Translations under genes and position numbers: made by a program
Notes under the pieces: model-generated
The model's database searches: none
Seen by the model: only the letters and a program-made list of their open reading frames with translations
Told to the model about the DNA's origin: nothing
Origin: Butyrivibrio sp.
Lineage (GTDB): Bacteria > Bacillota > Clostridia > Lachnospirales > Lachnospiraceae
DNA length: 64,000 nt
Assembly (NCBI RefSeq): GCF_017635265.1
Contig: NZ_JAGBLU010000080.1
Location: 1 to 64,000, forward strand
Direction of reading: 5' to 3'
Part shown: positions 42,923 to 59,819 of the stretch, in pieces
How positions within the stretch are numbered: the first letter of the stretch is position 1
Layout: each line of letters opens with the position of its first letter

Positions 42923-44929
42923 TTAGAAGAGTAGTGATTTCCATACGAGGAGTTCTTTGGATGAAACGGTGCTAAGTGGTCCTGGTATGGTCTCCGATGA
43001 GCGGTGGTTTCCGAGAAGGTCACAATCAAAGATGATCGGCGTGCCATCGGGATTTTCAAATTTCTGCTCTGGTTCGAATGCAACTCCAAGGCAGTCTGTG
43101 CTTAAAACTCCGCAGGTGAAATCCTTAAGTGCTTTGTCATAATTTGTCTTAAGGAAATATTCTCCATTTTTTTCTTTTAGCTCTATGGTGACTTTAGTCT
43201 TCTTATCTACAAGCTTATTCTTCTCTTTCTTATAAACAGTTGCTCCATTGAAGTAAGCATTACCATCAACCCATACTGGAAGATGACCAAAGTGAGCTTC
43301 GGCAAGATGTCCCATATCGGGATCTTTTTCAAAGTCAAATTGATTATTCCACTCATCATAGGTTGGGAAAATATCAAATGGTGCAGTTCCAACTACCTTG
43401 TAATCTGCATCAGCGGCAGTTTTCTTTTTGTCATCTATTTTGTGCTGCTGCACAAAGATGTTGTTGTAAATTCTGTCATCACCATGAAGGATGGTCATAA
43501 AGCCTGCAACCTCTGTACGGTGACGGATATGGTAAGGTGTATATCTTGGCTCACGTTGACCGTTAACGATGCTGTCTACACCGGAATTTATAAGGCTGAA
43601 GCTTCCGAGAAGAAGATTGTGAAGTACTGCAATTCCTTCACTTGGAATAGTGATAGCAACAGGTGATAAAAGAATGTTGTTATCAATAAGTGTAGGACCA
43701 TGTCCAACCTCTATAAACACATCGCTGTTAAACATGGCACCGGGACCTTGTTTTATACCATCAGGACGGGTATTGTCATGCATAAGATTTTGGCTTACTC
43801 TTGCCCCTTGAGCCTGCCAGTCAAGCCAGACACCCATAATGCTGTGATGAATATGATTTCTCCTTATTGTCACATCTATTGCGGCATGGAGCTTTATTCC
43901 TGCAGTCTCTGCACCACCAAGCTGCTGAGAGGTACATACATCATGAATTTCGCAGTCCTCAATTGTCGAGAATACTGCGCCCATTCTGCCAACTATACCT
44001 GTCTGTTCGCAGTGGTGGATGTGACATCTGCGAACAGTATGATGACCTATGTTTTCTTTTAGCCATCCGTGGTACTGACCGCGGCATACAGCGTCTCTCT
44101 CCATTTGAGTTGGGCTCTTGACCTGTCTTTTTGTAAAGTACATATCGTTTTCCGGATCGAGATACTTACCAAGAGAAATGCCACAGCATTTACTTCCGTA
44201 AATTTCGCAATCTTCAATTACCCAGCCTTTGCTCCAGTGAGGTCCGATCATTCCATCCTGATAAGCAGCAGGAGGAGCCCATGTTGTGGCAGCTTTACAG
44301 ATAGTAAAGCCACTGACTGTTATATAGTTGATACCGTTTTCTTCAGGCATAAAACAATTGCGTCTTACAAGAAATTCTACATTTTCCTTATTAGGGTCAA
44401 GTCCCTGGAAATTACCATAAAGAATCGTCTCATCTCCGTCCTGTTCAGTGTACCATAGGTATTTTGCTGCATCCTGATTCCAGGCAAGAGGATCCGGATT
44501 GCCCATTTGGCATTCAGAAAGGGAAGTGGTTTCAAACATCATGCTGTTATTAATGAAAACAGCGCCTGTGTGCCTGATGATTGGAGCAAAGTACCAATCT
44601 CCGTAAACTCGTGTTGTGTATGGATTATAGTCACCAAAAATGCTGTTCTTAACAGATGTTTTCCAAAGGTTTCCTTTAACCTTAGTCCAGTTTTTGGCTT
44701 CTTCGGCACCGGTTATTACGGCAGCAAGCGGTTTTTCAGAGCGATATATTATTGGAGAATTTTCTGTTCCGGCATTTCTCGGAACTACATGTTCTCTGTA
44801 TATCCCCGGTCTTACAATAATCTCATCTCCCGGCTGAGCAATTTTTGCAGCATCACCGATAACTTTAAAAGGGCGCTCAGTGCTTCCGTCCCCATCGCGA
44901 AAGGCATTGGCATCAACGTAGTAGATCAT
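42923..44929 (-). CDS. GH120 beta-xylosidase-like parallel beta-helix glycosidase
   Basis: A 668-residue right-handed parallel beta-helix protein. It opens with YYVDANAFRDGDGSTERPFK and GDEIIVRPGIYREHV, then carries the GH120 signatures WAPPAAYQDGMIGPHWSKGW, AGIKLHAAIDVTIRRNHIHH, GVWLDWQAQGARVSQNL and VFIEVGHGPTLIDNN. The last two blocks hold the catalytic Asp and Glu of the family as I recall it. Expected product: xylose from xylo-oligosaccharides. No signal peptide. ATG 44929 follows AAGGAG at seven bases; the in-frame ATG 44944 precedes that ribosome-binding site. It is divergent from its likely LacI regulator. Confidence 0.85.
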   Translation of the reverse strand: MIYYVDANAFRDGDGSTERPFKVIGDAAKIAQPGDEIIVRPGIYREHVVPRNAGTENSPIIYRSEKPLAAVITGAEEAKNWTKVKGNLWKTSVKNSIFGDYNPYTTRVYGDWYFAPIIRHTGAVFINNSMMFETTSLSECQMGNPDPLAWNQDAAKYLWYTEQDGDETILYGNFQGLDPNKENVEFLVRRNCFMPEENGINYITVSGFTICKAATTWAPPAAYQDGMIGPHWSKGWVIEDCEIYGSKCCGISLGKYLDPENDMYFTKRQVKSPTQMERDAVCRGQYHGWLKENIGHHTVRRCHIHHCEQTGIVGRMGAVFSTIEDCEIHDVCTSQQLGGAETAGIKLHAAIDVTIRRNHIHHSIMGVWLDWQAQGARVSQNLMHDNTRPDGIKQGPGAMFNSDVFIEVGHGPTLIDNNILLSPVAITIPSEGIAVLHNLLLGSFSLINSGVDSIVNGQREPRYTPYHIRHRTEVAGFMTILHGDDRIYNNIFVQQHKIDDKKKTAADADYKVVGTAPFDIFPTYDEWNNQFDFEKDPDMGHLAEAHFGHLPVWVDGNAYFNGATVYKKEKNKLVDKKTKVTIELKEKNGEYFLKTNYDKALKDFTCGVLSTDCLGVAFEPEQKFENPDGTPIIFDCDLLGNHRSSETIPGPLSTVSSKELLVWKSLLF

Positions 44930-44971
44930 AAAAACTCCTTTCATACATAATTGACAATAAAGTTGAAATTT

Positions 44972-45029
44972 GTTTAACGATTAACATAGATATGTATAAT
45001 ATACTATGCACGAAATGCCCAAAAGTCAA
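44972..45029 (-). promoter_or_regulatory. Promoter and LacI-type operator of the GH120 gene
   Basis: On the minus strand, TTGACT (45024-45029), a 17-bp spacer and TAGTAT (45001-45006) form a promoter. GTTTAACGATTAAC (44972-44985) lies just downstream of the expected start and matches the palindrome before the permease gene at 12 of 14 positions. Confidence 0.55.
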
Positions 45030-45090
45030 TGATAAATGCACAAAAATAGAATGAATAAACCGAATAATTAGTTAACTTTAACAAAAAACC

Positions 45091-45142
45091 TTGACAAGAG
45101 AGTTTGCTGAGCGTAATAATATACATACGTTTAACGATTTAC
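45091..45142 (+). promoter_or_regulatory. Promoter and operator of the LacI gene
   Basis: Consensus TTGACA (45091-45096), a 17-bp spacer and TAATAA (45114-45119). GTTTAACGATTTAC (45129-45142) lies a few bases beyond the expected start, where a repressor would block initiation or escape, implying autoregulation. Confidence 0.6.
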
Positions 45143-45168
45143 TAAATATCACAAATGAGGAATCATAA

Positions 45169-46218
45169 ATGGTAACACTCAAAGAGGTTGCTGAAAGGTG
45201 CAACGTGTCTGCCACAACAGTTTCTAATGTTATCAATGGCAAGGCGAAGACCAGTGAAGAAACTAAAAAAAGAATATTGCAGGTGATAAAAGAGACCGGT
45301 TATAAGCCTAACTATATTGCGCAGGGACTTCGAGTAAAAAAGACCAGAACAATTGCCATAATAGCAGAAGATATTGCGCAGTTCACTTCTCCTGCAATCA
45401 TCGAGCGTATCATGGAGACCTGCGAAAAAAAGAACTATCGGGTTGTGGTTCATAATCTCAGACTTTATGACAGGTGGTCGGACACCTGGTATGGTCAGGA
45501 AGACGAATATCATTCGGTTTTGGATCCGGTGATAAAAGATATACTTTCATCTCAGGTTGATGGAGTTATATATCTGGCCGGACATGCCAGAATCATAAAG
45601 ACATTTAATGCAGGCTTTGATCTGCCGATAGTTATGTGTTATGCCTACTCGGAATCTTCTGCAATTCCGTCAGTTGTCATAGACGACGAGAAAAGCGCCT
45701 ATGAGATGGTTTCATATCTTATAAATAAAGGGCATGAACGTATTGGATTTATCGGAGGACGAATGGACAATATTCATACTGCTCAGCGATTATTGGGGTA
45801 TCAAAGGGCCATGTATGAGAAGGGACTTTTATTTGATCCAAAGCTTGTATATTACGGGGACTGGACGAGGCAGGCAGGCTTTGATGGTGCGAGGTCATTG
45901 CTTGAGAAGAACGTCACGGCAATATTTGGAATATCTGACAGGATGACCGGAGGTGTATATGACTACCTCGAAGAAAAAAATCTGATTGTCGGAAAAGATA
46001 TTTCAGTAGCCGGATTTGACAATGAAAGTATAGCGGCGTTCTTTAGACCTCAGCTTACAACAACAGAACTACCACTTGGAGAAATAGGAAGTAAAGCAGC
46101 AGAACTTTTGCTTGATAAACTGGAAGATGCGAATGGGGATTCGCAAAATGGGGATAATCCGAGGGTTTACAAGTTTCCATGCAAGATGATCATCAGAAAA
46201 TCGGTTTCTGAAAGATAG
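45169..46218 (+). CDS. LacI-family transcriptional regulator
   Basis: A 349-residue LacI/GalR regulator. The helix-turn-helix MVTLKEVAERCNVSATTVSNVIN is followed by the hinge GYKPNYIAQGLRVKKT and an effector-binding domain (GFIGGRMDN, IFGISDRMTGGVYDYL, SVAGFDNESI, LTTTELPLGEIG). GAGGAA precedes the ATG. It lies between the divergent GH120 gene and the transporter operon, and copies of one operator sequence stand before all three units. The effector is probably a xylo-oligosaccharide or xylose, as inference from GH120. Confidence 0.94.
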   Translation: MVTLKEVAERCNVSATTVSNVINGKAKTSEETKKRILQVIKETGYKPNYIAQGLRVKKTRTIAIIAEDIAQFTSPAIIERIMETCEKKNYRVVVHNLRLYDRWSDTWYGQEDEYHSVLDPVIKDILSSQVDGVIYLAGHARIIKTFNAGFDLPIVMCYAYSESSAIPSVVIDDEKSAYEMVSYLINKGHERIGFIGGRMDNIHTAQRLLGYQRAMYEKGLLFDPKLVYYGDWTRQAGFDGARSLLEKNVTAIFGISDRMTGGVYDYLEEKNLIVGKDISVAGFDNESIAAFFRPQLTTTELPLGEIGSKAAELLLDKLEDANGDSQNGDNPRVYKFPCKMIIRKSVSER

Positions 46219-46232
46219 TGTTTTTTTACCAT

Positions 46233-46254
46233 TTTGGTTTAACGTTAAACCAAA
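46233..46254. promoter_or_regulatory. Perfect 22-bp palindrome (LacI-type operator)
   Basis: The core GGTTTAACGTTAAACC is extended on each side by TTT/AAA to give a perfect 22-bp palindrome with a central CG, the usual LacI-family geometry. It lies between the regulator stop codon and the GGGAGG of the permease gene. No good -10 box is visible beside it, so it may act as a roadblock to transcription coming from the regulator gene. Confidence 0.75.
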
Positions 46255-46268
46255 GGGAGGTGTTAGGG

Positions 46269-47177
46269 GTGTCAAAAAAGAAGATTTATTCTCTTAAACT
46301 ATTTCTGTTAGTATTACCATTCATTATTTTGGTATTACTCTTTAGCTACTATCCGCTCTATGGCTGGATGTACGCGTTTTATGATTATAAGCCGCCAAAA
46401 ACTTTATCTAATTGTCCGTTTGTGGGATTTAAATGGTTTGAATCTTTGGTAAGCAGCGAGACTAAAGTGCAGCAGATCATTCAGGTTCTGAAAAACACAT
46501 TTGCCATGAGTGGACTTACGCTTGGAACCAGCTGGCTTCCAATGCTTTTTGCAGTATTTCTTAATGAGATCAGAGGTGTAAAGTTCAGAAAGTTTGTGCA
46601 GACAGTAACAACACTCCCAAACTTTGTGAGCTGGGTAATGGTTTACTCAATCGCTTTTTCACTTTTTAACAGCACAGGTATGCTCAATTCCCTTTTATTA
46701 AAGTCAGGAGTGATTGATCAGCCTATTCTTTTCCTTCAGTCATCAAGTCATGTATGGTTTACACAGTGGCTTTGGCTCACATGGAAAAATCTTGGCTGGG
46801 CAGCAATTATGTACATTGCGGCTATATCAAGCATTGATGATGAGATGATACAGGCAGCCAGAGTTGATGGAGCAACCAGAATGCAGATAATCCGGCACAT
46901 TACAATACCTAGTCTTTTGCCAACCTATTTCGTGCTTCTGGTGCTGAATGTGGCTAACTTCCTCAACAATGGAATGGAACAGTATTACGTATTCCAAAAC
47001 GCTTTTAATAAAGAGTACATCCAGGTTCTCGACCTGTACGTTTACAACATGGCTATGGGTAGTGGCGGATATTCGGTTTCTGTAGCAATCAGCATGCTAA
47101 AGAGTCTGGTAAGCGTAGTTCTTTTGGTCATAGTTAACGGAGCATCAAAGAGAATCCGCGGTGAGAGCATACTATGA
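46269..47177 (+). CDS. ABC oligosaccharide transporter permease (LplB type)
   Basis: A 302-residue six-helix permease. The EAA loop is IQAARVDGATRMQII. GTG 46269 is chosen because GGGAGG (46255-46260) precedes it; an in-frame GTG at 46218 would place the operator palindrome inside the gene. First gene of the transporter operon controlled with GH120; partner of the next permease. Confidence 0.88.
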   Translation: MSKKKIYSLKLFLLVLPFIILVLLFSYYPLYGWMYAFYDYKPPKTLSNCPFVGFKWFESLVSSETKVQQIIQVLKNTFAMSGLTLGTSWLPMLFAVFLNEIRGVKFRKFVQTVTTLPNFVSWVMVYSIAFSLFNSTGMLNSLLLKSGVIDQPILFLQSSSHVWFTQWLWLTWKNLGWAAIMYIAAISSIDDEMIQAARVDGATRMQIIRHITIPSLLPTYFVLLVLNVANFLNNGMEQYYVFQNAFNKEYIQVLDLYVYNMAMGSGGYSVSVAISMLKSLVSVVLLVIVNGASKRIRGESIL

Positions 47178-47189
47178 TGGAGGTTTGAG

Positions 47190-48116
47190 ATGGGACATTC
47201 AAATGAAAAAGGTTCAACAATAAAAGTAAGTGCAGGGGACAGAACAGTGGAAATTGTGTGCTATATAGTTTTTTCTATAGCAGCTTTCCTTTGCCTTTAT
47301 CCTTTCTATTACATAGTTATCAACACAATTAGTGCCAATGATTTAAGCGCAAAAGGAGATATTCTTTTTTGGCCGCAGGGGATTCACTTTAAAAACTATT
47401 TGTCGGCTTTCCGGATTGATGGTCTTTTAAGGGCATTTCAGATTTCTCTGATGAGAACAGTTATAGGAACAGCGCTGACAGTATTTGCTTCAGCTTTCCT
47501 TGGATTTATGTTTACTCAGGAAAAAATGTGGCTCAGAAAGTTCTGGTACAGACTGATAGTTGCAACGATGTATTTTAACGCCGGAATCATTCCATGGTTC
47601 CTCGTAATGAAGACAATGCATCTTACTAATAATTTCTGGGGCTATATTCTTCCGGCAATCGTGTCACCTTTCAACCTGATCCTTACAAAAACATTTGTTG
47701 AGTCAGTGCCAAAGGAACTGCAGGAAGCAGCAGAGATGGACGGGGCAGGAGTTCTGACTGTATTTTTCAGGATAATAATTCCTGTAATCAAGCCTATCAT
47801 GGCTACAGTAGCGATTTTTTCAGCGGTAAGTCAGTGGAACGCTTTTCAGGACACATTGCTTCTTATGACAGATACAAAGCTTTATCCGTTGCAGTTTGTA
47901 TTGTATCAGTATTTAAATCAGGCAAGTTCACTGGCATCTCTTGCTCAAAGTAACACCAGCACCTCTTCACTTGCCGCAGCAGCCGCTACAACACAGACAA
48001 CAACAAGTGTAAGAATGACTATTACAGTAATCGTAGTGTTACCAATCATGCTCGTATACCCAATCTTCCAGAAATACTTCGTAAAAGGAATCATGATTGG
48101 AGCAGTAAAAGGCTAA
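47190..48116 (+). CDS. ABC oligosaccharide transporter permease (LplC type)
   Basis: A 308-residue partner permease with EAA loop LQEAAEMDGAGVLTV and C-terminus KYFVKGIMIGAVKG. A Ser/Thr/Ala-rich periplasmic segment (SNTSTSSLAAAAATTQTTTSV) before the last helix is unusual in length. GGAGG precedes the ATG, 12 bp after the previous stop. Confidence 0.9.
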   Translation: MGHSNEKGSTIKVSAGDRTVEIVCYIVFSIAAFLCLYPFYYIVINTISANDLSAKGDILFWPQGIHFKNYLSAFRIDGLLRAFQISLMRTVIGTALTVFASAFLGFMFTQEKMWLRKFWYRLIVATMYFNAGIIPWFLVMKTMHLTNNFWGYILPAIVSPFNLILTKTFVESVPKELQEAAEMDGAGVLTVFFRIIIPVIKPIMATVAIFSAVSQWNAFQDTLLLMTDTKLYPLQFVLYQYLNQASSLASLAQSNTSTSSLAAAAATTQTTTSVRMTITVIVVLPIMLVYPIFQKYFVKGIMIGAVKG

Positions 48117-48189
48117 CGCCCCCAAAAGGTAATGGAAGCAACCCATGCGGGTTGATATAAATGTTAAGAGGTTAAAAGGAGGAATGAAA

Positions 48190-49974
48190 ATGAAGTGTAA
48201 GAAAATTGCTTCTCTTGCTCTTTCCGCAGTTATGGCAGCATCAATGCTGGCCGGTTGTGGAAGTAGCGGAGACAGCGCAGGGGGAACAACAAACACACAA
48301 ACTCAGACGGAAAGTAAAACCGAAGCTACAACTACAACTGAAACATCTACAGGGGATACGGCTGCAGCTGCTGAAGTGTCACATGATGAAGAGTACACCG
48401 TAGACTTTTACGATGTAGCTGCAAACTTTCAGGGCGTTCAGTCCGGATGGTATGGCAAGATTGTAAAAGACAAATTTAATATGAATCTCAACATTATTGC
48501 TCCACAGGTTTCAGGTGATGGCGCAGCTCTTTACCAGACACGATGTGCAGCAGGCGCTCTGGGTGATCTTATCATTCTTGATAATGCTGATATGCAGGAG
48601 TGTGTAGAGTCAGGGCTTATTCATGATCTTACAGATGTAATTGCCCAGTATCCAAATCTTTCCAGATATATGGAACAGATTAAAGCTTTCAATGCAATGC
48701 TTGGTGATGGAAGCAAGATTTATGCCATTCCGCTTGAAATGAATACAAATGGTCCAACAGCCTATAAGCAGCTTCATGTTTATACTTATCCTCGTTTGGG
48801 ATGGGATATGTACAATGAAGTAGGTGCTCCGGAACTTAAGAATACTGATGATCTTCTCAATTGTCTTGCTGAAATTCAGAAGGCTCATCCACAGAATGAT
48901 AAAGGCGATCCGGCATATGCAATCAGTATGTGGAAAGACTGGGATAGCCAGTACATGGAAAATGTTGCGCAGCTTACAAAATGGTATGGACAGGAAGTTA
49001 ACGGTTCCGTTCTTATCGGAACAGACAATTCAATTGCACCCCTTACAGATAAAGCCGGTGCATATTACAAAATGCTTAAGTTCTTTTATCAGGCAAATCA
49101 GATGGGACTTGTAGATCCCGATTCAGCTACACAGGACTGGAACATGATGGTTTCAAAGATGCAGGACAAGAGAGTTTACCTGTATTGGTACAGCTGGCAG
49201 TATGGATTCTGGAACACGCCTGCTAAGGGAGAAGAAGGTGTTAACTACATTGAGATTCCTGTAGCAGATACGAACCTTTATCAGCCTTCTGATACATATT
49301 ATGGCGACGGAAGAGTTATTGCTGTAGGCTCTCAGGTCAGTGATGAAAACTTTGCAAGGCTTATGGAATTCCTTGACTGGTATGCGTCACCGGAAGGCGT
49401 ACAGATACAGCATGGTGGTACAGAAGGTCTTATCTATACAGTAGAAGATGGCAAATATGTCCTTACAGAAGACGGACTTAATCGTTTCTCTGCAGAAGTT
49501 GCAGTTCCTGAAGATCAGGGCGGCGGAAACTGGAATGATGGCAACAACCAGATTAATCAGTGGATCGTTGCAAGCTGCGATATCAATCCTGATACAAACG
49601 AGCCTTATGGAACAGATATGTGGTCATCAACAATCAAGATGAATGAGACAAAGACAACAAAAGAATGGACTGAGAAGTTTGGCGCAGCTGATGACGTTGA
49701 GTATCTGTCAAAGAACAATATGATGACAGTAGTTCCAAGTATCAACATTGCTCTTGCAATTGATACAACTGATATAAGCCTTATCCGTAAGCAGTGTGGC
49801 GATATTATCAAGGATGCATCCTGGAGAATGGTATTTGCTGCTGACGATGCAGACTTTGAGAAGCAGTGGGATGATATGACTTCCCAGCTTGAAGGCCTTG
49901 GATGGGCAGACCTGGTAGCATTTGATACAGAAAAGTACGCTCCAATGCTTGAGGCAAGAAAAGCAGCACAGTAA
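48190..49974 (+). CDS. Extracellular oligosaccharide-binding lipoprotein (LplA type)
   Basis: A 594-residue binding lipoprotein. The lipobox MLAGC gives Cys23, a Thr/Gln/Glu-rich linker runs to about residue 55, and the binding fold starts at EYTVDFYDVAANFQG. ATG 48190 is seven bases after AAGGAGG; ATG 48184 is only one base after it. Completes the importer with the two preceding permeases. Likely ligand: xylo-oligosaccharides, inferred from the co-regulated GH120 gene. Confidence 0.9.
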   Translation: MKCKKIASLALSAVMAASMLAGCGSSGDSAGGTTNTQTQTESKTEATTTTETSTGDTAAAAEVSHDEEYTVDFYDVAANFQGVQSGWYGKIVKDKFNMNLNIIAPQVSGDGAALYQTRCAAGALGDLIILDNADMQECVESGLIHDLTDVIAQYPNLSRYMEQIKAFNAMLGDGSKIYAIPLEMNTNGPTAYKQLHVYTYPRLGWDMYNEVGAPELKNTDDLLNCLAEIQKAHPQNDKGDPAYAISMWKDWDSQYMENVAQLTKWYGQEVNGSVLIGTDNSIAPLTDKAGAYYKMLKFFYQANQMGLVDPDSATQDWNMMVSKMQDKRVYLYWYSWQYGFWNTPAKGEEGVNYIEIPVADTNLYQPSDTYYGDGRVIAVGSQVSDENFARLMEFLDWYASPEGVQIQHGGTEGLIYTVEDGKYVLTEDGLNRFSAEVAVPEDQGGGNWNDGNNQINQWIVASCDINPDTNEPYGTDMWSSTIKMNETKTTKEWTEKFGAADDVEYLSKNNMMTVVPSINIALAIDTTDISLIRKQCGDIIKDASWRMVFAADDADFEKQWDDMTSQLEGLGWADLVAFDTEKYAPMLEARKAAQ

Positions 49975-49999
49975 TAACAACATTGCAAAAACCAAAGAA

Positions 50000-50037
50000 A
50001 CACTCTATGCTAAAATATAAGCATAGAGTGTTTTTTT
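50000..50037 (+). terminator. Rho-independent terminator
   Basis: A perfect 12-bp stem, ACACTCTATGCT (50000-50011) with AGCATAGAGTGT (50020-50031), runs into a seven-T tract. It ends the GH120-linked transporter operon. Confidence 0.95.
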
Positions 50038-50077
50038 GGTTTAAAAAGCTTTTTGGATTAATTTTGAGGATAAAAAT

Positions 50078-52546
50078 ATGACATATTTCACTTGCTTTTT
50101 TCTGGACAATGAAAAAGACATAATAGTTAACCTGTACAAAGAATTGGACAGGATGTACTACGTACTGACTACGCCTAATCATGGTACCGGGAATCTTATA
50201 AGAAATCTGGCGAGTTTATGTAAACTGCCACTTTCCAAGGGAGAAAATGATATGCTTGTCATCCGCGGTGAAGTGCCGTGCTTTGTTGATTCATCCAATG
50301 CGGAGAGCTATGTTTTTATGTTGGGAGGGACTGAGGTCGCCAGTATTTATCCGGACGGACGTGTTTTGGTTAAAGCTTCAATTCCTGCAATAGCCAAGAC
50401 TCTTATGAGCCAGACCAAGGACTTTAAGCTTGAGCTTGACAAGACAATATTTAAGACCAGAGTTCGCAAAGACTTGAAATTCCGTGCGGACCTTCACACG
50501 CATATGAACGGAAATCTTCCGGGTGATGTGCTTATTGCATTGGGAATAGCTCATCAGATAAGATATCCTCTTTATTATGTAAAAAAACTTGATCTAAAGC
50601 TCACTCCCATGCAGTGGGAGAAAGTTAATGCCCAGAGAGAAAAGGTGGCAAGACAGTTTGTTACATCAGGACTTCAGGGAAAATATCTCGACAGACGAAT
50701 CAATGACAATACGTTCATTAACTTTGCGGACCTTATCTTAAATAATCTGGATAATGCAGAGATGAATATAGTTAAAATCCGCGGTTCCCTTGCTGTTATT
50801 AAGGATGGGCAGGCCGTTTTCACAAACCTTGAGAAAGTCTATCTCTATCGCTATGTCTTTTGCAAAGGAAAAGAGAGCGAAGAAAAAATAAATCTGCACA
50901 GTGTGGATCAGATTCCGGATGAAGATGTAAAAGCTTATCTGAAGCAGATGCTCAAGGATAAAGAAAATGCTGATTACTGCAAGAACACAATCTTTCAGGA
51001 TAAGCTCTTGTGGATAGCAAGAAACTACAAAGCACAGGGTGTTTATTATGCCGAAATAAGTGATACGACTCTTGTAAAAAAATACGAGTCTCTGGAAATG
51101 CTAAGACAGGTTCATGAGGTCATGCCTCATATATACAGGGAAACCGGCGTAATGATCAGGTTCCTTGCAGCTATGCGAAGAATACCTTTGACTATTGTAA
51201 AAGATGCGGTAACACCGTCGGATTACATAGAGCAGAATCTTGAAGTTCTGAAAGCCACTGCACTTGACCCATATGTTGCAGGATGCGATTTTGTTGGCGA
51301 AGAGATAAATGACATAATCACATTAAAACCGGCTTTCAAGGAGATTGTAAAGATTGCAGGTAAAGATCCAAGTTTTGTTATAAGGGTTCATGCCGGAGAA
51401 AATGACAGCCAGAAAGATAATATTGCGCACAGTATCGCCTGTGTAAAGGATTCTCTTGCTCCCGGACAGAAAATGCCGAGAATGCGCCTTGGACATGGTC
51501 TATATACCTATAGTCCGACTTCCAAAAAGGGAAAAGAAGTATTAAAGCAGCTTAAGGAAAACAACGTTGTTCTTGAATTTCAGATAACAAGTAATGTGCG
51601 CCTTAACAACCTTAACTCATTGGAGCATCACCCGCTTAAACAGTATCTTAGACAGGGAATAAGCTGTGTTCAGGGAACTGATGGTGCAGCTCTGTACGGA
51701 ACATCATCTATCGATGAGCAGCTGTCGCTGGCCAAAATGCTTGGGTTATCTGATGCAGAGCTTAAGCTTATGAAAGACTCTGAAACCCGGATAATAAATG
51801 AGGCCCGCGAAGCATATTCGGTCAAGAAAGCTTCTTTTGCTGAGCTGGTAAAAGACAGGGATATGGAAGAAGTCCTTTTGGAAAAGATGCAAACTGTGAA
51901 GATTTCAAAAGGTAATTCCAAAAAGATGGCAAAACTTGACTCTAATCAGGAGTTAAAGGAGCAGATAAGCGAAATAACCTGGGACAGATTCCCGGTAATA
52001 TTTATCGGAGGCAGCTTTAATACTGAGAACAGAGCTACGAGAATCAGTAAAAAAGCAACAATGCAGATTGATGAATTACTGGAACATATGAATCCGGATG
52101 AAGTGTGTTTTGTTATTGGACATAAGCTGGCAGGTTATGAAAAATATCTTTTAAGTCATAATAAAAAGGGCTTTAGAATTTATGCCGTTGTCCCCTCTCA
52201 GATGGAGAGAAAGGAAATAGACAAGATAAAAGCTTTGGGAGTACAGGTCAGAGTATCAACGGAATCTCAGGGAATGGGAATATATAAGAGCTTCAATTAC
52301 GAAATATTTGAGCGCAGACCTTCTGCTGTTGTGGCATTTGATGGTAACAGTGCTGCAGCAAATCTCATTCAGGAAGCCAAAAACGGCAAAGGTAAATCAG
52401 CTATTTTTGTTTGGGAGCATTCCAAAAACCTGATGCAGAAAGCAAAATCCCTTCACGGATATGTGTATACCTTTGGAGATGAGTCAAGTTTAGTAAAAAT
52501 CATGACGGATCTTCAAAAGGATTTACTAAGAGATGTCAGGCAGTAA
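50078..52546 (+). CDS. Adenosine deaminase domain fused to a Rossmann/SLOG-like domain
   Basis: An 822-residue three-part protein. Residues 1-130 are unrecognised. About 135-600 form an adenosine/AMP-deaminase barrel: His140 and His142 (DLHTHMNG), His438 and Glu441 (VHAGEND), His473 (LGHGLY), FQITSNVRLNN, and Asp535 (GTDGAALYG). The usual TDDP is TDGA here, so the second Asp is lost. About 636-822 form an alpha/beta domain (FPVIFIGGSF, FVIGHKLAGYEKYLL, SAVVAFDGNSAAANLIQEA) resembling SLOG/DprA/LOG nucleotide-binding folds. Ordinary adenosine deaminases are about 340 residues. It stands alone between transporter clusters behind a strong terminator with no clear promoter, and ends 11 bases inside a convergent LacI gene. 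Role unknown: purine salvage, or nucleotide signalling or defence. Confidence 0.75.
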   Translation: MTYFTCFFLDNEKDIIVNLYKELDRMYYVLTTPNHGTGNLIRNLASLCKLPLSKGENDMLVIRGEVPCFVDSSNAESYVFMLGGTEVASIYPDGRVLVKASIPAIAKTLMSQTKDFKLELDKTIFKTRVRKDLKFRADLHTHMNGNLPGDVLIALGIAHQIRYPLYYVKKLDLKLTPMQWEKVNAQREKVARQFVTSGLQGKYLDRRINDNTFINFADLILNNLDNAEMNIVKIRGSLAVIKDGQAVFTNLEKVYLYRYVFCKGKESEEKINLHSVDQIPDEDVKAYLKQMLKDKENADYCKNTIFQDKLLWIARNYKAQGVYYAEISDTTLVKKYESLEMLRQVHEVMPHIYRETGVMIRFLAAMRRIPLTIVKDAVTPSDYIEQNLEVLKATALDPYVAGCDFVGEEINDIITLKPAFKEIVKIAGKDPSFVIRVHAGENDSQKDNIAHSIACVKDSLAPGQKMPRMRLGHGLYTYSPTSKKGKEVLKQLKENNVVLEFQITSNVRLNNLNSLEHHPLKQYLRQGISCVQGTDGAALYGTSSIDEQLSLAKMLGLSDAELKLMKDSETRIINEAREAYSVKKASFAELVKDRDMEEVLLEKMQTVKISKGNSKKMAKLDSNQELKEQISEITWDRFPVIFIGGSFNTENRATRISKKATMQIDELLEHMNPDEVCFVIGHKLAGYEKYLLSHNKKGFRIYAVVPSQMERKEIDKIKALGVQVRVSTESQGMGIYKSFNYEIFERRPSAVVAFDGNSAAANLIQEAKNGKGKSAIFVWEHSKNLMQKAKSLHGYVYTFGDESSLVKIMTDLQKDLLRDVRQ

Positions 52547-53549
52547 ATACTCGTGTGGATTCTCTTAGGTGGATTGTGTGTTCAACAGTTATCATAGTTC
52601 TTTTTTCAGTACCGTTAAGAAGACCATACATTGCTTCACCTGCATATACTCCCATTTGACGCGCGTCAAAATGGGCGGCAGTTATGGAAGGGTTGTGGTG
52701 TGCCAAATCGCTGCTGTCATAGCAAGCTGCAAGCAGTATGTCTCCAGGTACGGACACACCCATTTTTGTGAGGGCATCACAAGACCAACCGGCAGTTACA
52801 TCATCACAGCATATTATGCCGTCGCAGCGCCTTTGCATAGCGGTTTCAACAGCAATTTTACAAGAGCTGAAGCTTGAGACGTCACGAAATATTAAATTGG
52901 GATCGGGGTCTATGCAAAAGTCGGAGATGCCCATTTTGACCCCTTCCAGCCTTTTTATGTTGACGTTATAATTCATGTTTCCGCCGATAAAAGCGATCCG
53001 TTTACAGCCATTGTTCATAAGACTTGAAGTAAGTTCCCTGCAAGCCAGAGCAGTGTTTGGTTCTACCATAACAGCGTCTTTTATTCCGGAGCCTACAACT
53101 ACCACAGGAATATTTTTCTTTTTTAGATATGAATGGCTTTTCTCACCTGAAATGGCACGGGTAAATATCACACCGTCAAGTGCGCCTTTTTCTACGGCCG
53201 GAATAAGTGGCTCGTACTCATCGGTGTTACAAAGTATCAGAAGAGTTTCATAGCCGTGATCTGCCAGAGCCCCTGCGGCTCCAAGAAGACACAGGTGAAA
53301 AAATTCTGATTCATATAAAAGATCTCTTGATAAGACCACACCAACATTACCACTTTTTCCATTGGAAGGAGTGGTATTTTTTTGCCTGTTCTGAGAAGGA
53401 GAGCTGTAGTCCAGTTCTCTGGCGGCTTCAATGACCTTTTTTCTTGTCTCTTCTGAGACCCTTCCATTTCCGGATAAGGCCCTTGAAACAGTTGTGGTGG
53501 AAATATTCAATTTTTCAGCTAGTTCGTTTAACCGTATTTCTTTTCCCAT
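52536..53549 (-). CDS. LacI-family transcriptional regulator (leaderless start)
   Basis: A 337-residue LacI/GalR repressor with helix-turn-helix EIRLNELAEKLNISTTTVSRALSG and effector domain motifs GVVLSRDLLYE, FIGGNMNYNVNIKRL and GIICCDDVTAGW. The start is fixed by the conserved N-terminus, yet no Shine-Dalgarno sequence precedes it and a consensus -10 ends seven bases upstream, so the mRNA should begin at or beside the ATG. It is divergent from the transporter/GH2 operon and probably represses it through GCGCAA palindromes. Confidence 0.9.
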   Translation of the reverse strand: MGKEIRLNELAEKLNISTTTVSRALSGNGRVSEETRKKVIEAARELDYSSPSQNRQKNTTPSNGKSGNVGVVLSRDLLYESEFFHLCLLGAAGALADHGYETLLILCNTDEYEPLIPAVEKGALDGVIFTRAISGEKSHSYLKKKNIPVVVVGSGIKDAVMVEPNTALACRELTSSLMNNGCKRIAFIGGNMNYNVNIKRLEGVKMGISDFCIDPDPNLIFRDVSSFSSCKIAVETAMQRRCDGIICCDDVTAGWSCDALTKMGVSVPGDILLAACYDSSDLAHHNPSITAAHFDARQMGVYAGEAMYGLLNGTEKRTMITVEHTIHLRESTRVFTA

Positions 53550-53556
53550 AGTTTTG

Positions 53557-53585
53557 ATTATAGTTTGGCAAATTCAAAAAGACAA
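53557..53585 (-). promoter_or_regulatory. Promoter giving a leaderless LacI mRNA
   Basis: On the minus strand, TTGTCT (53580-53585), a 17-bp spacer and perfect TATAAT (53557-53562). Seven bases remain before the ATG at 53549, so the predicted start site coincides with the initiation codon. Confidence 0.7.
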
Positions 53586-53589
53586 TCAG

Positions 53590-53637
53590 TTTTGCGCAAA
53601 AAAATTGAAATTGCGCGGATGATGCGCAAAATTGCGC
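53590..53637. promoter_or_regulatory. Cluster of GCGCAA operator palindromes
   Basis: TTTTGCGCAAAA (53590-53601) is a perfect 12-bp palindrome. TTGCGC (53611-53616) and GCGCAA (53624-53629) form an inverted repeat with a 7-bp spacer, and another TTGCGC follows at 53632-53637. The cluster touches the -35 of the leaderless LacI promoter and precedes the permease operon. GC-rich sites stand out in an AT-rich gap. Confidence 0.65.
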
Positions 53638-53728
53638 GCAGATTATAAAATATTCGTAAATTTGATATAAAAACTTTGAATTATTTGAAAATTATTCATC
53701 TAGAGGCTTTTGGGCACAATTACTAAAA

Positions 53729-53734
53729 TATAAT
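53729..53734 (+). promoter_or_regulatory. -10 box of the permease/GH2 operon
   Basis: Perfect TATAAT, 44 bases before ATG 53778, but with no good -35 at 16-18 bp. Either activator-assisted or not the true promoter; TATAAA at 53644-53649 beside the operators is the alternative. Confidence 0.4.
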
Positions 53735-53777
53735 CATGGATTTCGAAAATTTATAAATAATGCACATGGGAGAGGGT

Positions 53778-54710
53778 ATGGAAAAAAGTAAAACGAAGAC
53801 TCCGTTTATGAAGGTAATAAAAAGGCATTGGCTACTTTTACTGATGCTTTTACCGAGTCTTTTATATGTGATCATTTTCAGTTACGTTCCAATGACAGGA
53901 ATAATCCTGGCTTTCAAAAAATATCAGTATGCAGGAGGAATTTACTTTTCTCCTTGGAATGGTCTTAATAACTTCAAAGCTCTTTTGATTTCAGGGAAAC
54001 TTGGGATGGTTACAAGAAATACGCTGCTCTACAACATAGCCTTTATAACTTTGGGTGTCTTATTTGAAATGGGTAGCGCAATTTTGCTCAACGAGTTGTT
54101 CTCCAAGTACTTTAAAAAGATAACTCAGTCACTTATGTTTTTGCCCTACTTCATAAGCTGGGTTGTAGCAGGCGCCATAATGTACAACATTTTCAACTAC
54201 GAGAAAGGAGTATTTAACCATGTATTGACATCTCTTGGAGGCAATGCATTTGATTTATACAATACTCCATCGGCGTGGATCATAGTAATTATTTTCCTGA
54301 AGATATGGAAACAGACAGGTTATGGCTCAGTTGTTTATCTGGCAGCCATTACAGGTCTTGACCAGGAAATGTTCGAGGCAGCATCAATTGACGGTGCCAG
54401 TGCCTGGCAGAAGATAAGATATCTTACGATCCCATCTCTTATGCCAACCATGATGATATTGGTTCTTTTGGGAATAGGAAATATCTTCAGAGGAGATTTT
54501 GGTCTGTTCTATCAGACAGTAAGGTCAAGCGCACTGCTTCAGCCAACAACTGACGTTATTGATACATATGTGTTCAGACTCCTCATAGACAACGGAGATA
54601 TCGGAGTATCTGCGGCAGCAAGTTTATATCAGTCAGTGCTGTGCTTCATAACCATAATGATATCCAATGGCTTAGTTAAAAAAGCTAATCCTGATTATGC
54701 ACTGTATTGA
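53778..54710 (+). CDS. ABC oligosaccharide transporter permease (LplB type)
   Basis: A 310-residue permease. The EAA loop is FEAASIDGASAWQKI. ATG 53778 follows GGGAGAGGGT; the earlier in-frame ATGs at 53760 and 53766 lack a ribosome-binding site. First gene of the fourth transporter set in the window, divergent from a LacI gene. Confidence 0.9.
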   Translation: MEKSKTKTPFMKVIKRHWLLLLMLLPSLLYVIIFSYVPMTGIILAFKKYQYAGGIYFSPWNGLNNFKALLISGKLGMVTRNTLLYNIAFITLGVLFEMGSAILLNELFSKYFKKITQSLMFLPYFISWVVAGAIMYNIFNYEKGVFNHVLTSLGGNAFDLYNTPSAWIIVIIFLKIWKQTGYGSVVYLAAITGLDQEMFEAASIDGASAWQKIRYLTIPSLMPTMMILVLLGIGNIFRGDFGLFYQTVRSSALLQPTTDVIDTYVFRLLIDNGDIGVSAAASLYQSVLCFITIMISNGLVKKANPDYALY

Positions 54711-54726
54711 TGGGAGGAAGGAAGAC

Positions 54727-55644
54727 ATGACAAATCAAGTAGTTATAAATAAACGCAGAAGGCTAAGTAAAGATGAGCTTGCGGTTAATATAGTCGGAGT
54801 TGTTCTGATAGGTATTTTTGCTCTGATCTGTGTAATTCCTTTTTACCTGATAATCATAGCTTCTTTTACCTCAGAGACATCACTTATCAGAAACGGCTAT
54901 CCGCTTTTGCCGTCAATTGAAAACTTTAGCTTAGACAGTTATAAGCTCAGCCTTAAAAATCCAATCGCGATACTTAAGGCATATGGAACAACAATAGGAG
55001 TTACGGTAGTTGGAACATTTTTGTCAGTTCTTTTGGCTACAATGACAGGCTACGTTCTTTCAAGAAAAGATTTTCCCTGGAGAAATAAGTTCGCATTTTT
55101 CTATTTCTTCACAACTTTGTTTAATGGAGGACTCGTTCCATGGTATTTGCTCTGTGTAAGATACCTTAATTTCAAAAACAGCTTCGCGGGACTTATTTTG
55201 CCACTGATGTTCTCTGTCTGGAACATGATAATAGCCAAATCATTCATGTCAGGGCTGCCTATGGAAATAACAGAGTCAGCAAAGATAGACGGAGCCAATG
55301 ATCTGGTCATATTTGCAAAACTTATCATTCCGCTTTCAAAGCCGCTTCTTGCGACCTTATCTCTTTTCTCAGCGCTGGCTTACTGGAATGATTGGTATAA
55401 CTGCATGTTATATGTGACTGACGAAAATAAATTTACACTTCAATACTACCTGCAGAGACTTTTGGGAAGTGCGGAAGCAATGAGAATAGTTGCTGAAAAG
55501 TCAGGAATTGCTCTTCCGTCAATTCCAATCGAGAGTATGAAGATGTCCATGACAGTAATAGCTACAGGACCAATCGTGTTGCTTTACCCGTTTGTACAAA
55601 GATATTTTGTAAAGGGGTTAACTATAGGAGCAGTGAAAGGATAA
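54727..55644 (+). CDS. ABC oligosaccharide transporter permease (LplC type)
   Basis: A 305-residue partner permease with EAA-type loop TESAKIDGANDLVIF and C-terminus RYFVKGLTIGAVKG. GGGAGGAAGG lies before ATG 54727; the longer reading from 54697 overlaps the previous gene and has no signal. Confidence 0.9.
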   Translation: MTNQVVINKRRRLSKDELAVNIVGVVLIGIFALICVIPFYLIIIASFTSETSLIRNGYPLLPSIENFSLDSYKLSLKNPIAILKAYGTTIGVTVVGTFLSVLLATMTGYVLSRKDFPWRNKFAFFYFFTTLFNGGLVPWYLLCVRYLNFKNSFAGLILPLMFSVWNMIIAKSFMSGLPMEITESAKIDGANDLVIFAKLIIPLSKPLLATLSLFSALAYWNDWYNCMLYVTDENKFTLQYYLQRLLGSAEAMRIVAEKSGIALPSIPIESMKMSMTVIATGPIVLLYPFVQRYFVKGLTIGAVKG

Positions 55645-55656
55645 AAGGAGGTATAA

Positions 55657-57318
55657 ATGAAAAAGAAGGTATTATCAATTATTTTGTCTGTCGCTATGAC
55701 AGCGGGGGTATTAACAGCTTGTGGTGAGAGCGCTTCTACAACAAGTGCTGACACAACAACACAGAGTGCAGGATCGGCAGAGCAGACACAGACTTCAGCA
55801 GAGGCACCGGCAGCAGAATCAACCGATCTGTTGGCAGGGCTTCCCTCAGCAATCGGGGAAGGAACAGTTACCGCAACACCTGAGATGTACTCAGGAATTG
55901 ACTTAAGTAAGCCCTACACAGTTCAGATGTATCTTATCGGCGATACACCAAATGACTGGGACGAGGTACTTGGGCTCATAAATGACTATCTTAAGCCATT
56001 TAACACAGATCTTAATGTAACATTCCTTAGCTGGAGTGATTACTCGACAATGTATTCACTTGTTCTTCAGGGAGGAGACGCAGACCTTATTTTCACAGCT
56101 CCATGGTGCTACATGTACACCGAAGCTGCAAAGGGATCTTTCTATACACTGGATTCTGACTTTATTGCAAAATGTATGCCACTTACAAATAAGTATCAGG
56201 CAGCAGAGAGCTGGGATGAGACAACTCTTTCAGGTAAGACCATAGCAGTTCCATCAAACACAGCTCAGCCAATGGGTAAGATTGTAGCAATCAGACAGGA
56301 TATTGCTGACAAGTATGGAATTTCAGAGCTTACAAGCTGGGATGACTACAAGAACTTCTCTCTTACAGTTGCAGAAAAAGAAACTCCTGAGACAGGTGTG
56401 TATGCACTTGCTGCAGCAGGGGATAACAACGAGCTTTGGGATGTATACAGAGAGCAGTATGACACATTCCTGGCACTTGATTCAGATTTCTTTGACATGA
56501 TCTATGAGTATAAGGAAGGATCACTTCCTACAAAGGACGATATCAAGCTGGTATACGAATATGAACCTTTCCGTCAGTATGCAAAAGACATGAAGGAAAT
56601 GGCTGACGCAGGATGCTGGAGCAGATCAGCTCTTACAAACACAGTAACAGATGACGATGCTTTTGGAGCACTTCAGGGTGCATCAATTGCATGGAACGCT
56701 TCAGTATTCACATACATCAGACAGGCAGAGCAGACAGACGGCGTAGTAGGCGCTGCTTATGATATCACAAAGCCACATCTTGTAGGCTGCGAAGCATATT
56801 CCAACAACGACATGGCTATCACAGCAAGCTCCAAGAATCCTGAGAGAGCAGCTATGGTTCTTGATATCATGAAGATGGATACATATGTTAACCGCCTTAT
56901 TCTTCTTGGTGAGGAAGGAAAGCATTACACAATCAATGAAAACAATGAGTACACAAAGGTTGACGGAGCAACAGAAAACTATCCTCCAATGACAGTTTCA
57001 GCATCCTGGGCAATCAAGAATGGCGAGCTTTCAGAGGCAGGCGGAGATCCTAGAGAAAAAGAGGTTTCTGACAGCTGGGAAGAAAGAGTTGTAAGCAACC
57101 CTACTATCACATTTGTATTTGATGACACAAATGTTTCCAATGAAAAAGCAGCAGTTAACACAGTATTGAATTCTTATGTTCCAATGCTTGAGCTTGGTCT
57201 TGTAGATGATGTTGATGCTACTCTTGATAAGATGATAAAAGAGTGCTACGATTCAGGACTTCAGACAGTACTTGATGAATTCTACAGTCAGTATGAAGCT
57301 TGGCTTGCAACAAGATAA
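55657..57318 (+). CDS. Extracellular oligosaccharide-binding lipoprotein (LplA type)
   Basis: A 553-residue binding lipoprotein with lipobox VLTAC (Cys22) and a Ser/Thr/Gln/Ala-rich linker to about residue 50. The fold starts at YTVQMYLIGDTPNDW. AAAGGAGG precedes the ATG. Completes the importer with the two permeases and is followed by a GH2 enzyme. Probable ligand: a beta-galactoside. Confidence 0.9.
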   Translation: MKKKVLSIILSVAMTAGVLTACGESASTTSADTTTQSAGSAEQTQTSAEAPAAESTDLLAGLPSAIGEGTVTATPEMYSGIDLSKPYTVQMYLIGDTPNDWDEVLGLINDYLKPFNTDLNVTFLSWSDYSTMYSLVLQGGDADLIFTAPWCYMYTEAAKGSFYTLDSDFIAKCMPLTNKYQAAESWDETTLSGKTIAVPSNTAQPMGKIVAIRQDIADKYGISELTSWDDYKNFSLTVAEKETPETGVYALAAAGDNNELWDVYREQYDTFLALDSDFFDMIYEYKEGSLPTKDDIKLVYEYEPFRQYAKDMKEMADAGCWSRSALTNTVTDDDAFGALQGASIAWNASVFTYIRQAEQTDGVVGAAYDITKPHLVGCEAYSNNDMAITASSKNPERAAMVLDIMKMDTYVNRLILLGEEGKHYTINENNEYTKVDGATENYPPMTVSASWAIKNGELSEAGGDPREKEVSDSWEERVVSNPTITFVFDDTNVSNEKAAVNTVLNSYVPMLELGLVDDVDATLDKMIKECYDSGLQTVLDEFYSQYEAWLATR

Positions 57319-57380
57319 AAAAATATGCAGTATCGTGATTTTGTGTGATGCCGCAACAAAAATGCACGAAATGATTATTC

Positions 57381-57410
57381 AGGGAGCAGATAATCCTGCT
57401 CCCTATATTT
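57381..57410 (+). terminator. Terminator/attenuator between binding protein and GH2
   Basis: AGGGAGCAG (57381-57389) pairs with CTGCTCCCT (57396-57404) around GATAATC-like loop bases, followed by ATATTTTT. The T tract is interrupted, so readthrough into GH2 is likely. Confidence 0.6.
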
Positions 57411-57434
57411 TTAAACTTTATCAGGAGAGAGGAA

Positions 57435-59819
57435 ATGGAGTTAAAAGATACCAGCTTAATAAATCAAAATTGGAAATTCAACTTGGAAGATTGTAATGGA
57501 GATATTTTTGCAGGAGCTGAATATGATGATTCATCATGGGAAGTGTTGACACTGCCCCACGACTGGGATACTTTTTTTGCTCCTGATAAGGATAACAAAA
57601 GTGGTGCCGGGGGCGGCTATGCAAAGGCCGGAACCGGATGGTACAGAAAAGAAGTGACCTTAAAAGATGAGGATGTCAAAGAATCAGGATATGAACTCAT
57701 TTTTGAGGGAATCTATATGGAGAGTACCGTGTTTGTTAACGGCAAAAAGGTAGGTGGAAACAACTACGGATACACAACCTTTTCTGTGGATATCACAGAC
57801 AAAATAGTTCCAGGAAAAAATGTCATAGCTGTTAAAGTTAATAATAGCAAGCAGCCAAACAGCAGATGGTATACAGGATCTGGAATTTACAGAGATGTTT
57901 ACTTAAGAAAACACGGAGATGTCTGCACCAATCTGTTTGGGGTAAAAGTGGATACAAATACAGTTACAGATGATGGAACCTTAGCTACACTGGATTTAAG
58001 AACTAAGATAGACAATTATTCTGATACAGACAAAGACTCAGTTATCAGATGGACAATAAAAGATAAGAGTGGAAAAGAAATTGCTACTACAGGCGCATCC
58101 CTGTGGATAGGCGCAAATGGAAGCGCAGAAGCAGCAAGCATGATGTTTGTTAATGACCCTGTTTTGTGGTCTGAAAAAGATCCATATTTATACTCCCTTG
58201 AGACAAGAGTATACGAAGGAGAAACATTAGTTGACAGACGCATAGAAAAAATAGGAATAAGGAAAGCTCTTTTTACCAAAGATAAGGGCTTTGTGTTAAA
58301 TGGAGAACAGGTGAAGATAAAAGGCGTATGTCTCCACCATGACAGCGGATTATTCGGCGCAGCTTTCCACAAAGAGGTCTGGAGCGAAAGATTTAAGTCA
58401 CTTAAGGATATGGGCGTAAATGGAATCAGATGTTCACACAATCCTCCGGCGCCAGCCTTCCTTGATCTTTGCGATGAAATGGGCTTTATCGTAATGGATG
58501 AAATCTGTGATGAGTGGACCCTGGGCAAGAATAAAAATGAGAACTATTATTCGGATAAACCATCCTACGGCTTTAGTCAGTTCTTTTCACAGGATGCGGA
58601 AAAAGAGCTAAGAACCATGATAAGGCGCGACTATAACCATCCAAGTATTGTCCTGTGGAGTATTGGGAATGAAATCCCTGAGCAGGGCTATGCGTCTGGG
58701 GCACAGATAGTAAAAATGCTCTCTGACATAGTGCACTCAGAGGATTCACAAAGGCTTGTTACAAGTGCCTGCGATAACATCGCATCCCTTCCTGCAATTG
58801 CCACCAAAGACAGCTTCCTTGAAGCTCTGGATGTAGTTGGCTACAACTATGTGGGAAGATGGCGTGAAAGGGCTGAAAGGTTCTATGAAGACGATAAGAT
58901 TGCTCACCCGGACAGACTTTTTATTGGAACAGAGAATCCGTCTGTTTGCGGGGACAGAGGCGACTACAGCTTAGAAGGGCCAAATAACACAAACTATATC
59001 ACAGCGACTCTGACCCATGAAGCTCTTTGGAGATTTACTGCAAGCAGGGACTATGTTGCAGGAGACTATATCTGGACAGGAATAGATTACCTCGGGGAAG
59101 CTCATTGGCCAAGGCGCGGCGCCAACTTTGGAGCAATTGACACTGCGGGATTTAAAAAGGATGCATTTTACTATTTCAGATCTATATGGAATAAGGATGA
59201 TGTGACACTACATCTTTTGCCTCACTGGAACTTTAAAGGAGACGAGGGCATATTTAAGCAGGTTCTTTGCTACACTAACTGCGAAAGAGTTAAGCTCTAT
59301 CTGAACGGACGACTTATTTCAGAAAAGTCAGGTGCTGCCTGTCCAAGATATGGAGCTACACAGAGCTGGGATGATGAGATGAGAAGATATCATCCGACTA
59401 CAGGAGACCTTCATTTATCCTGGGATGTGCCATATGAAGCAGGCGAGCTGCGGGCAGAAGGTTATATTGGAGATAAGCTTGTAAAAGAGTGTGTGGTAAA
59501 AACTACAGGCGAAATGTCAAAACTGGCAGCAGATGTGAAGAACGTCGGAGAGTTTACGTTTGTGGAAATAAGCGCTGCAGATGAAAATGGCAATTGTGTT
59601 CCGAACGAAGATTCTGTAGTTGCTGTTAAGTATGATGACACAGTTGAGTTTATTGGAATGGATGCAGGTAACATGCTTGATCTGTCCTGTTATAAAGAAG
59701 AAAAAAGAGCCATGCTCGCCGGAAAACTACTGGCAGTTTTCAGGAAAAAAGAACAGGGCTCTAGGGCAACAGTTTGTTTTAAGGCAGAAGGACTATCAGA
59801 ACTGAATATTGATATCTGA
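57435..59819 (+). CDS. GH2 beta-galactosidase
   Basis: A 794-residue GH2 retaining glycosidase. The N-terminal sugar-binding sandwich holds WEVLTLPHDWD and GTGWYRKEV, then immunoglobulin-like and TIM-barrel domains follow. The acid/base is Glu413 (SIGNEIPEQG) and the nucleophile probably Glu500 (FIGTENPS). NGIRCSHNPPAPAFLDLCDEMGF is the family core. The C-terminal domain matches the GH2 type found after the barrel. No signal peptide. Its stop abuts the stop of the convergent methyltransferase gene without a gap. Other beta-glycosidic activities in GH2 are possible but the motifs favour galactosidase. Confidence 0.9.
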   Translation: MELKDTSLINQNWKFNLEDCNGDIFAGAEYDDSSWEVLTLPHDWDTFFAPDKDNKSGAGGGYAKAGTGWYRKEVTLKDEDVKESGYELIFEGIYMESTVFVNGKKVGGNNYGYTTFSVDITDKIVPGKNVIAVKVNNSKQPNSRWYTGSGIYRDVYLRKHGDVCTNLFGVKVDTNTVTDDGTLATLDLRTKIDNYSDTDKDSVIRWTIKDKSGKEIATTGASLWIGANGSAEAASMMFVNDPVLWSEKDPYLYSLETRVYEGETLVDRRIEKIGIRKALFTKDKGFVLNGEQVKIKGVCLHHDSGLFGAAFHKEVWSERFKSLKDMGVNGIRCSHNPPAPAFLDLCDEMGFIVMDEICDEWTLGKNKNENYYSDKPSYGFSQFFSQDAEKELRTMIRRDYNHPSIVLWSIGNEIPEQGYASGAQIVKMLSDIVHSEDSQRLVTSACDNIASLPAIATKDSFLEALDVVGYNYVGRWRERAERFYEDDKIAHPDRLFIGTENPSVCGDRGDYSLEGPNNTNYITATLTHEALWRFTASRDYVAGDYIWTGIDYLGEAHWPRRGANFGAIDTAGFKKDAFYYFRSIWNKDDVTLHLLPHWNFKGDEGIFKQVLCYTNCERVKLYLNGRLISEKSGAACPRYGATQSWDDEMRRYHPTTGDLHLSWDVPYEAGELRAEGYIGDKLVKECVVKTTGEMSKLAADVKNVGEFTFVEISAADENGNCVPNEDSVVAVKYDDTVEFIGMDAGNMLDLSCYKEEKRAMLAGKLLAVFRKKEQGSRATVCFKAEGLSELNIDI

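Follow-up and report, generated by a model that had tools for sequence, protein, structure and literature searches.

The 822-residue protein described here, encoded within a 64,000-nucleotide stretch of Butyrivibrio DNA (the window; positions 1 to 64,000 of contig NZ_JAGBLU010000080.1), is by sequence comparison a conserved three-domain fusion and appears to represent a new adenosine deaminase (ADA) subfamily, in which an N-terminal domain without known relatives precedes an ADA core and a C-terminal SLOG-like domain. The mechanism that we consider most likely, tentatively and with a probability of about 0.4, is the ligand-gated deamination of an adenine nucleotide by a stand-alone enzyme. According to this proposal, the protein would be a soluble, metal-dependent purine deaminase, whose ADA core would remove the amino group from the adenine of a phosphorylated nucleotide or of a derivative, not from free adenosine, while the TRPM-type SLOG-like domain would bind a nucleotide-like ligand and gate the deaminase. 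The N-terminal domain and a family-specific insert in the core would probably shape a lid over the active site or an oligomer interface.

In the literature, so far as the available portions of the reports go, nucleotide deaminases with a signal-sensing Rossmann-type domain are defence effectors (Cad1, PMC12669630) or partner-driven machines (RADAR, PMC9994260). A similar pairing is found here in a conserved stand-alone chromosomal gene of rumen fibre degraders; if this gene indeed specifies a ligand-controlled ATP-type deaminase, ITP production could belong to ordinary physiology, beyond abortive infection, defence effectors could derive from enzymes of this sort, and there would be a bacterial soluble TRPM-type SLOG domain with an enzymatic output. 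Judged from the titles and abstracts listed, no paper deals with this fusion.

Architecture of the fusion

The start of the 822-residue protein is kept in relatives, 42 of which can be aligned to it at 53-91% identity. Because the complete fusion is found in many species, neither a chance reading frame nor faulty assembly can account for it (Table 1). Pfam A_deaminase (PF00962) matches residues 314-565 with E 1.1e-16 and 61.2 bits against a cut-off of 27, and the ADA core also retrieves adenosine deaminases from the PDB (best E 5.9e-10, profile A5). Residues 1-132 and 630-822, on the other hand, give neither a Pfam match over cut-off nor a convincing PDB sequence match; the distinct N-terminal domain proposed by the sequence-only reading is supported. 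The fusion is fixed: across 246 genomes of the order, all strong matches to the C-terminal domain share a frame with the ADA or fall at a contig break. Four very weak matches lie outside the fusion (E 2e-4 to 0.0076, same genomes). Of the two inspected by eye, one coincides in part with a short frame next to a copper-ATPase-like gene, and the other falls inside a spore-protease-like gene; we do not take these two for free-standing copies of the domain.

Table 1. Features of the deaminase gene and of the DNA just upstream (window positions; counts refer to the 97-protein alignment)
Feature	Position	Strand	Basis or conservation
Terminator-like hairpin and T-run, between upstream transporter gene and deaminase gene	about 49999-50037	+	by eye
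Three-domain gene (N-terminal domain, ADA, SLOG-like), 822 aa	50078..52546	+	open frame ending in stop
N-terminal domain without known relatives, residues 1-128 (about 1-130)	50078..50461	+	
ADA core with family-specific insert, residues 133-605	50474..51892	+	Pfam A_deaminase and PDB matches
Metal-binding HTH, H140 and H142, then Asn144 for the usual Asp	50495..50503	+	H140, H142 97/97
Family-specific block Q245-x2-F248-x3-E252-x2-Y255-x2-R258-x2-F261	50810..50860	+	all six residues 97/97
HAGE, H438 (metal) and E441 (catalytic)	51389..51400	+	97/97
Catalytic His473 of GHG	51494..51496	+	97/97
Metal-binding D535 and G536 (G536 at mouse ADA Asp296 position)	51680..51685	+	97/97 each
Putative C-terminal SLOG-like domain, residues 628-806	51959..52495	+	seen via sister branch

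Active site and probable substrate

The alignment of 97 proteins consists of the 822-residue protein, 91 of 93 family loci, three proteins of the group f211 and two members of a divergent sister branch; at least four of its rows are contigs present twice, and L095 (767 aa), L101 (in-frame stop) and the f211 member L187 are not part of it. The ADA motifs HTH, HAGE, GHG and TD, which the sequence-only reading had picked out, are all present, and their named residues are identical in every row. As this invariance extends down to 53% identity and into the far sister branch, catalysis appears to be under selection. The departure from TDDP to TDGA that the same reading pointed out is real and fixed, and there is a second change, absent from its list: the usual aspartate of the HxHLDG motif (mouse ADA Asp19) is Asn144 or its equivalent in 95 of the 97 proteins and Ala in the remaining two. 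By alignment, then, both canonical adenosine-binding aspartates are replaced, Asp19 by Asn and Asp296 by Gly.

The same two positions are altered in TaqCad1 and its close homologues. TaqCad1 is a CARF-ADA enzyme with ATP as substrate, and adenosine deamination is reported, in the available part of its description, to be lacking (PMC12669630). There, mouse ADA Asp296 corresponds to Asn and Asp19 to Gly, residues at these positions are described as recognising ATP, and restoring both aspartates raised the adenosine activity without rescuing it (PMC12669630), which implies that other features matter as well. By analogy with what is described for TaqCad1, the loss of both aspartates makes a nucleotide substrate plausible for the protein studied here. 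The two proteins share an ADA core and a Rossmann-type domain (predicted in our case), as well as the replacement of both aspartates, but the replacing residues recorded for TaqCad1 are Gly and Asn, as opposed to Asn144 and Gly536. Furthermore, loss of Asp296 is not diagnostic by itself, since two plain ADAs of the same class (L183 and L184) have Asn at this position and keep the Asp19 motif.

Three plain ADAs, when aligned with the protein, have a gap in place of the family-specific block. This block, Q..F...E..Y..R..F, may resemble a part of AMP deaminases; membership of that family was rejected, the AMP deaminase profile PF19326 having no match at E up to 10 in the genome that holds the protein (G000, 88% complete). 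The canonical adenosine deaminase model aden_deam (TIGR01430) gives 53 bits, below its NCBIfam equivalog cut-off of 216.55. A block similar to the family insert was also noticed in a 367-aa stand-alone ADA-like protein of another genome, G1240 (L193:1453-2556, + strand), which has TDS for TDD and lacks the N- and C-terminal domains.

Relative to canonical adenosine deaminase (Add, PF00962), the protein thus has the ADA core with its metal and catalytic residues but differs in the two substrate-binding aspartates, the large insert and the two extra domains. It could still be an ordinary adenosine deaminase of purine salvage, with the extra domains serving assembly or allosteric feedback, and we regard this as unlikely. 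The ADA core and the conserved chromosomal location of the gene are in keeping with salvage, and so is the fact that the protein is the sole A_deaminase member found in G000, which means that, at 88% completeness of this genome, it could double as the cell's adenosine deaminase. Three observations speak against salvage. First, both adenosine-binding aspartates are replaced, and Gly536 is fixed. Second, some relatives hold an additional plain-sized ADA-like frame (326-340 aa, for example in G037, G067 and G065). Third, no purine gene family appears among the best 25 of the 146 Pfam families listed for neighbouring genes; the siting in purine-salvage operons, which the sequence-only reading had named as a refuting finding, was not seen among these families.

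The C-terminal domain and its putative ligand

That the C-terminal domain is SLOG-like had been proposed from the letters of the gene, and the assignment is now supported transitively, via the sister branch, and not through any match with the 822-residue protein itself. When excised, the sister-branch C-domains match both TRPM-type SLOG models of Pfam (LSDAT_euk and LSDAT_prok) weakly, with E 2.8e-4 and 1.1e-3; all scores are below the Pfam cut-offs (18.8 bits against 25.4, and 20.8 against 25.7), and the whole sister-branch proteins score weaker still (E 0.0069 and 0.0014). The C-domain of the 822-residue protein can be aligned to those of the sister branch, and a local profile comparison between the two gives E 1.3e-5. 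Taken together, these matches indirectly support a C-domain of SLOG type, closest to the TRPM/LSDAT kind. None of the main-branch or f211 proteins and C-domains scanned, the 822-residue protein included, has a Pfam LSDAT match; one f211 C-domain has an unrelated match to CdhD, also under its cut-off, whose strength (E 0.0032) is similar to that of the LSDAT matches. Nothing convincing was found when three C-domain profiles were compared with the PDB, the best match being a dehydroquinate synthase at E 0.059. The glycine-rich segments differ between the branches, reading TGG and GGG in the sister branch and GHK and DGN in the main branch, whose lack of the former suggests that ligand binding may differ there or be lost.

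DprA and LOG proteins are both of the SLOG fold, and LOG enzymes are SLOG-fold nucleotide N-glycosidases with the motif PGGxGTxxE. In the local profile comparison, which used 11 DprA and three LOG sequences, the C-domain gave E 0.23 against DprA and 0.061 against LOG, and two LacI proteins, taken as a negative control, gave 0.26. The two halves of the DprA set matched each other at 4.3e-80, but DprA matched LOG at only 0.09, and the comparison is thus too weak to exclude DprA or LOG membership. A further possibility is that of a bifunctional enzyme of nucleotide degradation, whose ADA would make an inosine nucleotide from which the SLOG-like domain would free the base in the manner of a LOG phosphoribohydrolase. 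The glycosidase activity of LOG enzymes and the unbroken association of the two domains among strong matches would suit such an enzyme; however, the profile comparison, with its low power, detected no similarity to the three LOG proteins of the same genus, and in place of the LOG motif the protein reads, by eye, DGNSAAANLIQE in the corresponding region. We hold this bifunctional role to be highly improbable.

Distribution, genomic context and biological role

Among the 79 Butyrivibrio genomes searched, 58 carry the gene at an identity of at least 66% (hand count), three of them as pieces only, and three full-length frames contain a single in-frame stop. The copies with in-frame stops (G043:C84, G021:C20 and G026:C42, with a second piece in G043 that has two) may reflect gene loss in some lineages or assembly errors. 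The gene was not found in the other 21, and because six of these (G038, G042, G051, G053, G070 and G072) are 95-99% complete, it is dispensable. Even sampling of the order gave matches at E 1e-20 in 39 of 392 genomes, which belong to 8 of 173 genera; even sampling of the phylum gave matches in 2 of 398 genomes, both Butyrivibrio. Genome contigs yielded 427 relatives, the best 80 of which come from Butyrivibrio, Pseudobutyrivibrio, Lachnospira, Bilifractor and other or less exactly named Lachnospiraceae. When the ADA part by itself was searched against the class, 14 of 341 genomes matched at E 1e-9; five belong to the family itself, four are full-length f211 proteins (834-841 aa), one is a divergent protein of 783 aa (G1118) and four are plain-sized ADA-like frames. 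Within 151 relatives of G1118, four genomes match: G1118 itself, G1178 (784 aa), G1192 with a fragment and G1240 with the 367-aa frame. The 783- and 784-aa proteins form the sister branch, which is divergent and has the same three-part layout as the 822-residue protein.

By codon comparison, the gene is under purifying selection. Against its relative at L109, dN is 0.048 and dS 1.01. When seven window genes were compared with L065, the deaminase gene had a larger dN (0.054) than any of the other six (0.005 to 0.035), and its dN/dS of 0.034 fell among their values (0.009 to 0.042).

A role in defence is possible but finds no support in the genomic data. The protein would then act against phages by itself, like Cad1 or RADAR RdrB, with the SLOG-like domain perceiving an infection signal and the core deaminating ATP, a reading that we judge to be distinctly unlikely. 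The active-site aspartates are replaced at the two positions described for TaqCad1, and the gene is patchy both within Butyrivibrio, where six of the non-carriers are at least 95% complete, and within the class, with many different genomic contexts, all of which would fit an effector. Against it stand several findings. First of all, the siting in a defence island that the sequence-only reading suggested looking for was not borne out: among the best 80 of the 427 relatives, contexts vary widely and the largest neighbour clusters cover 12 of 80 loci, and in a capped sample of 127 neighbouring proteins (130-650 aa, at most three genes away and one from each cluster) no PADLOC family at E 1e-10 occurs in more than two, as judged from the best 25 of 68 families ranked by number of members, many of the single matches being to helicase models. 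Pfam at E 1e-8 finds GGDEF and response regulator four times each in the same sample, and three families three times, NUDIX among them. Second, scans of viral contigs seeded by patterns from the 822-residue protein, its alignment and the divergent protein returned no relative, and plasmid and phage records match the ADA part only, at 26-29% identity. Third, identity is high within lineages, as against 24-28% between the RdrB proteins of distinct RADAR systems, a figure given in the available text for the C-terminal part only and over a different breadth of comparison (PMC9994260). Finally, the Cas10/Csm1 type III-A model TIGR02578 exceeds its cut-off in one of 107 relatives, outside Butyrivibrio, and scores below it in 34 more, G000 among them.

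Cad1 and RdrB are among the closest known systems. The single PADLOC match of the 822-residue protein, to CARF5--CARF_ADA (5.8e-10), covers residues 306-559, that is, the ADA part only, and is generic, as two plain ADAs score far better on this model (1e-50 and 1e-40); membership of Cad1 was rejected on these grounds. No CARF family is among its Pfam matches at the sequence level. In the PADLOC model, moreover, CARF precedes a C-terminal ADA, whereas in this protein the SLOG-like part follows the ADA and a different domain precedes it, the core contains a large conserved insert, and no recurring CRISPR neighbour was seen. RdrB of RADAR resembles the protein in its N-terminal extension before HxH (H152/H154 in RdrB, H140/H142 here) and in an insertion within the ADA core, and differs in that the available part of the report on it mentions no SLOG-like domain at the C-terminus (PMC9994260). 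No RdrB chain appeared among the PDB sequence matches, the RdrB content of the PADLOC and PDB sets being uncertain; nor does a partner gene recur across the 80 loci, and RdrA is not among the best 25 of the 68 PADLOC families listed for the 127 sampled neighbours.

Since the gene is chromosomal, is conserved within its lineages and has neither defence nor purine genes as recurring neighbours, it more likely serves the balance of nucleotides, in housekeeping or under stress, than dedicated phage defence. A bolder reading, which seems to us very unlikely, would be a previously undescribed, self-contained sensor-effector family of gut and rumen Clostridia, in which a SLOG domain of the TRPM-channel type would sense an ADP-ribose-like or other nucleotide signal and switch on deamination of the adenine-nucleotide pool, with ATP turned into ITP. 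The cell would thereby answer stress or phage by its own means, with neither CRISPR nor a partner gene required.

TIR_2 is over its family cut-off in the genomes of 64 of the 107 relatives, many times in frames of about 1000 aa, and is too unspecific to be used. In the window, the gene has sugar ABC-transporter genes (by eye) on one side and, on the other, a LacI-type regulator gene that converges on it. Inspected by eye, the region 42923-59819 around it contains glycoside-hydrolase-like genes and two sets of genes for sugar ABC transporters, together with two LacI-type regulators, surroundings as expected of a fibre degrader. The terminator-like hairpin with its T-run recurs upstream in several species (L050, L065, L109 and L121), in L050 and L121 beside other upstream genes; neither the window nor nine loci contain an Rfam match that reaches the gathering score. 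In 69 of 79 cases, the next ORF upstream, as called mechanically, runs in the same direction as the gene. By eye, genes for NUDIX-like hydrolases are found upstream, one or two genes away, in two distinct contexts, one comprising L051, L052, L057, L058, L059, L062, L064 and L093 and the other L082, L083, L085, L088, L097, L101 and L115, and there is a further one near a divergent relative (L189:3537-3998). Their nearness is possibly due to chance and possibly a functional hint, given the link between NUDIX and ADP-ribose.
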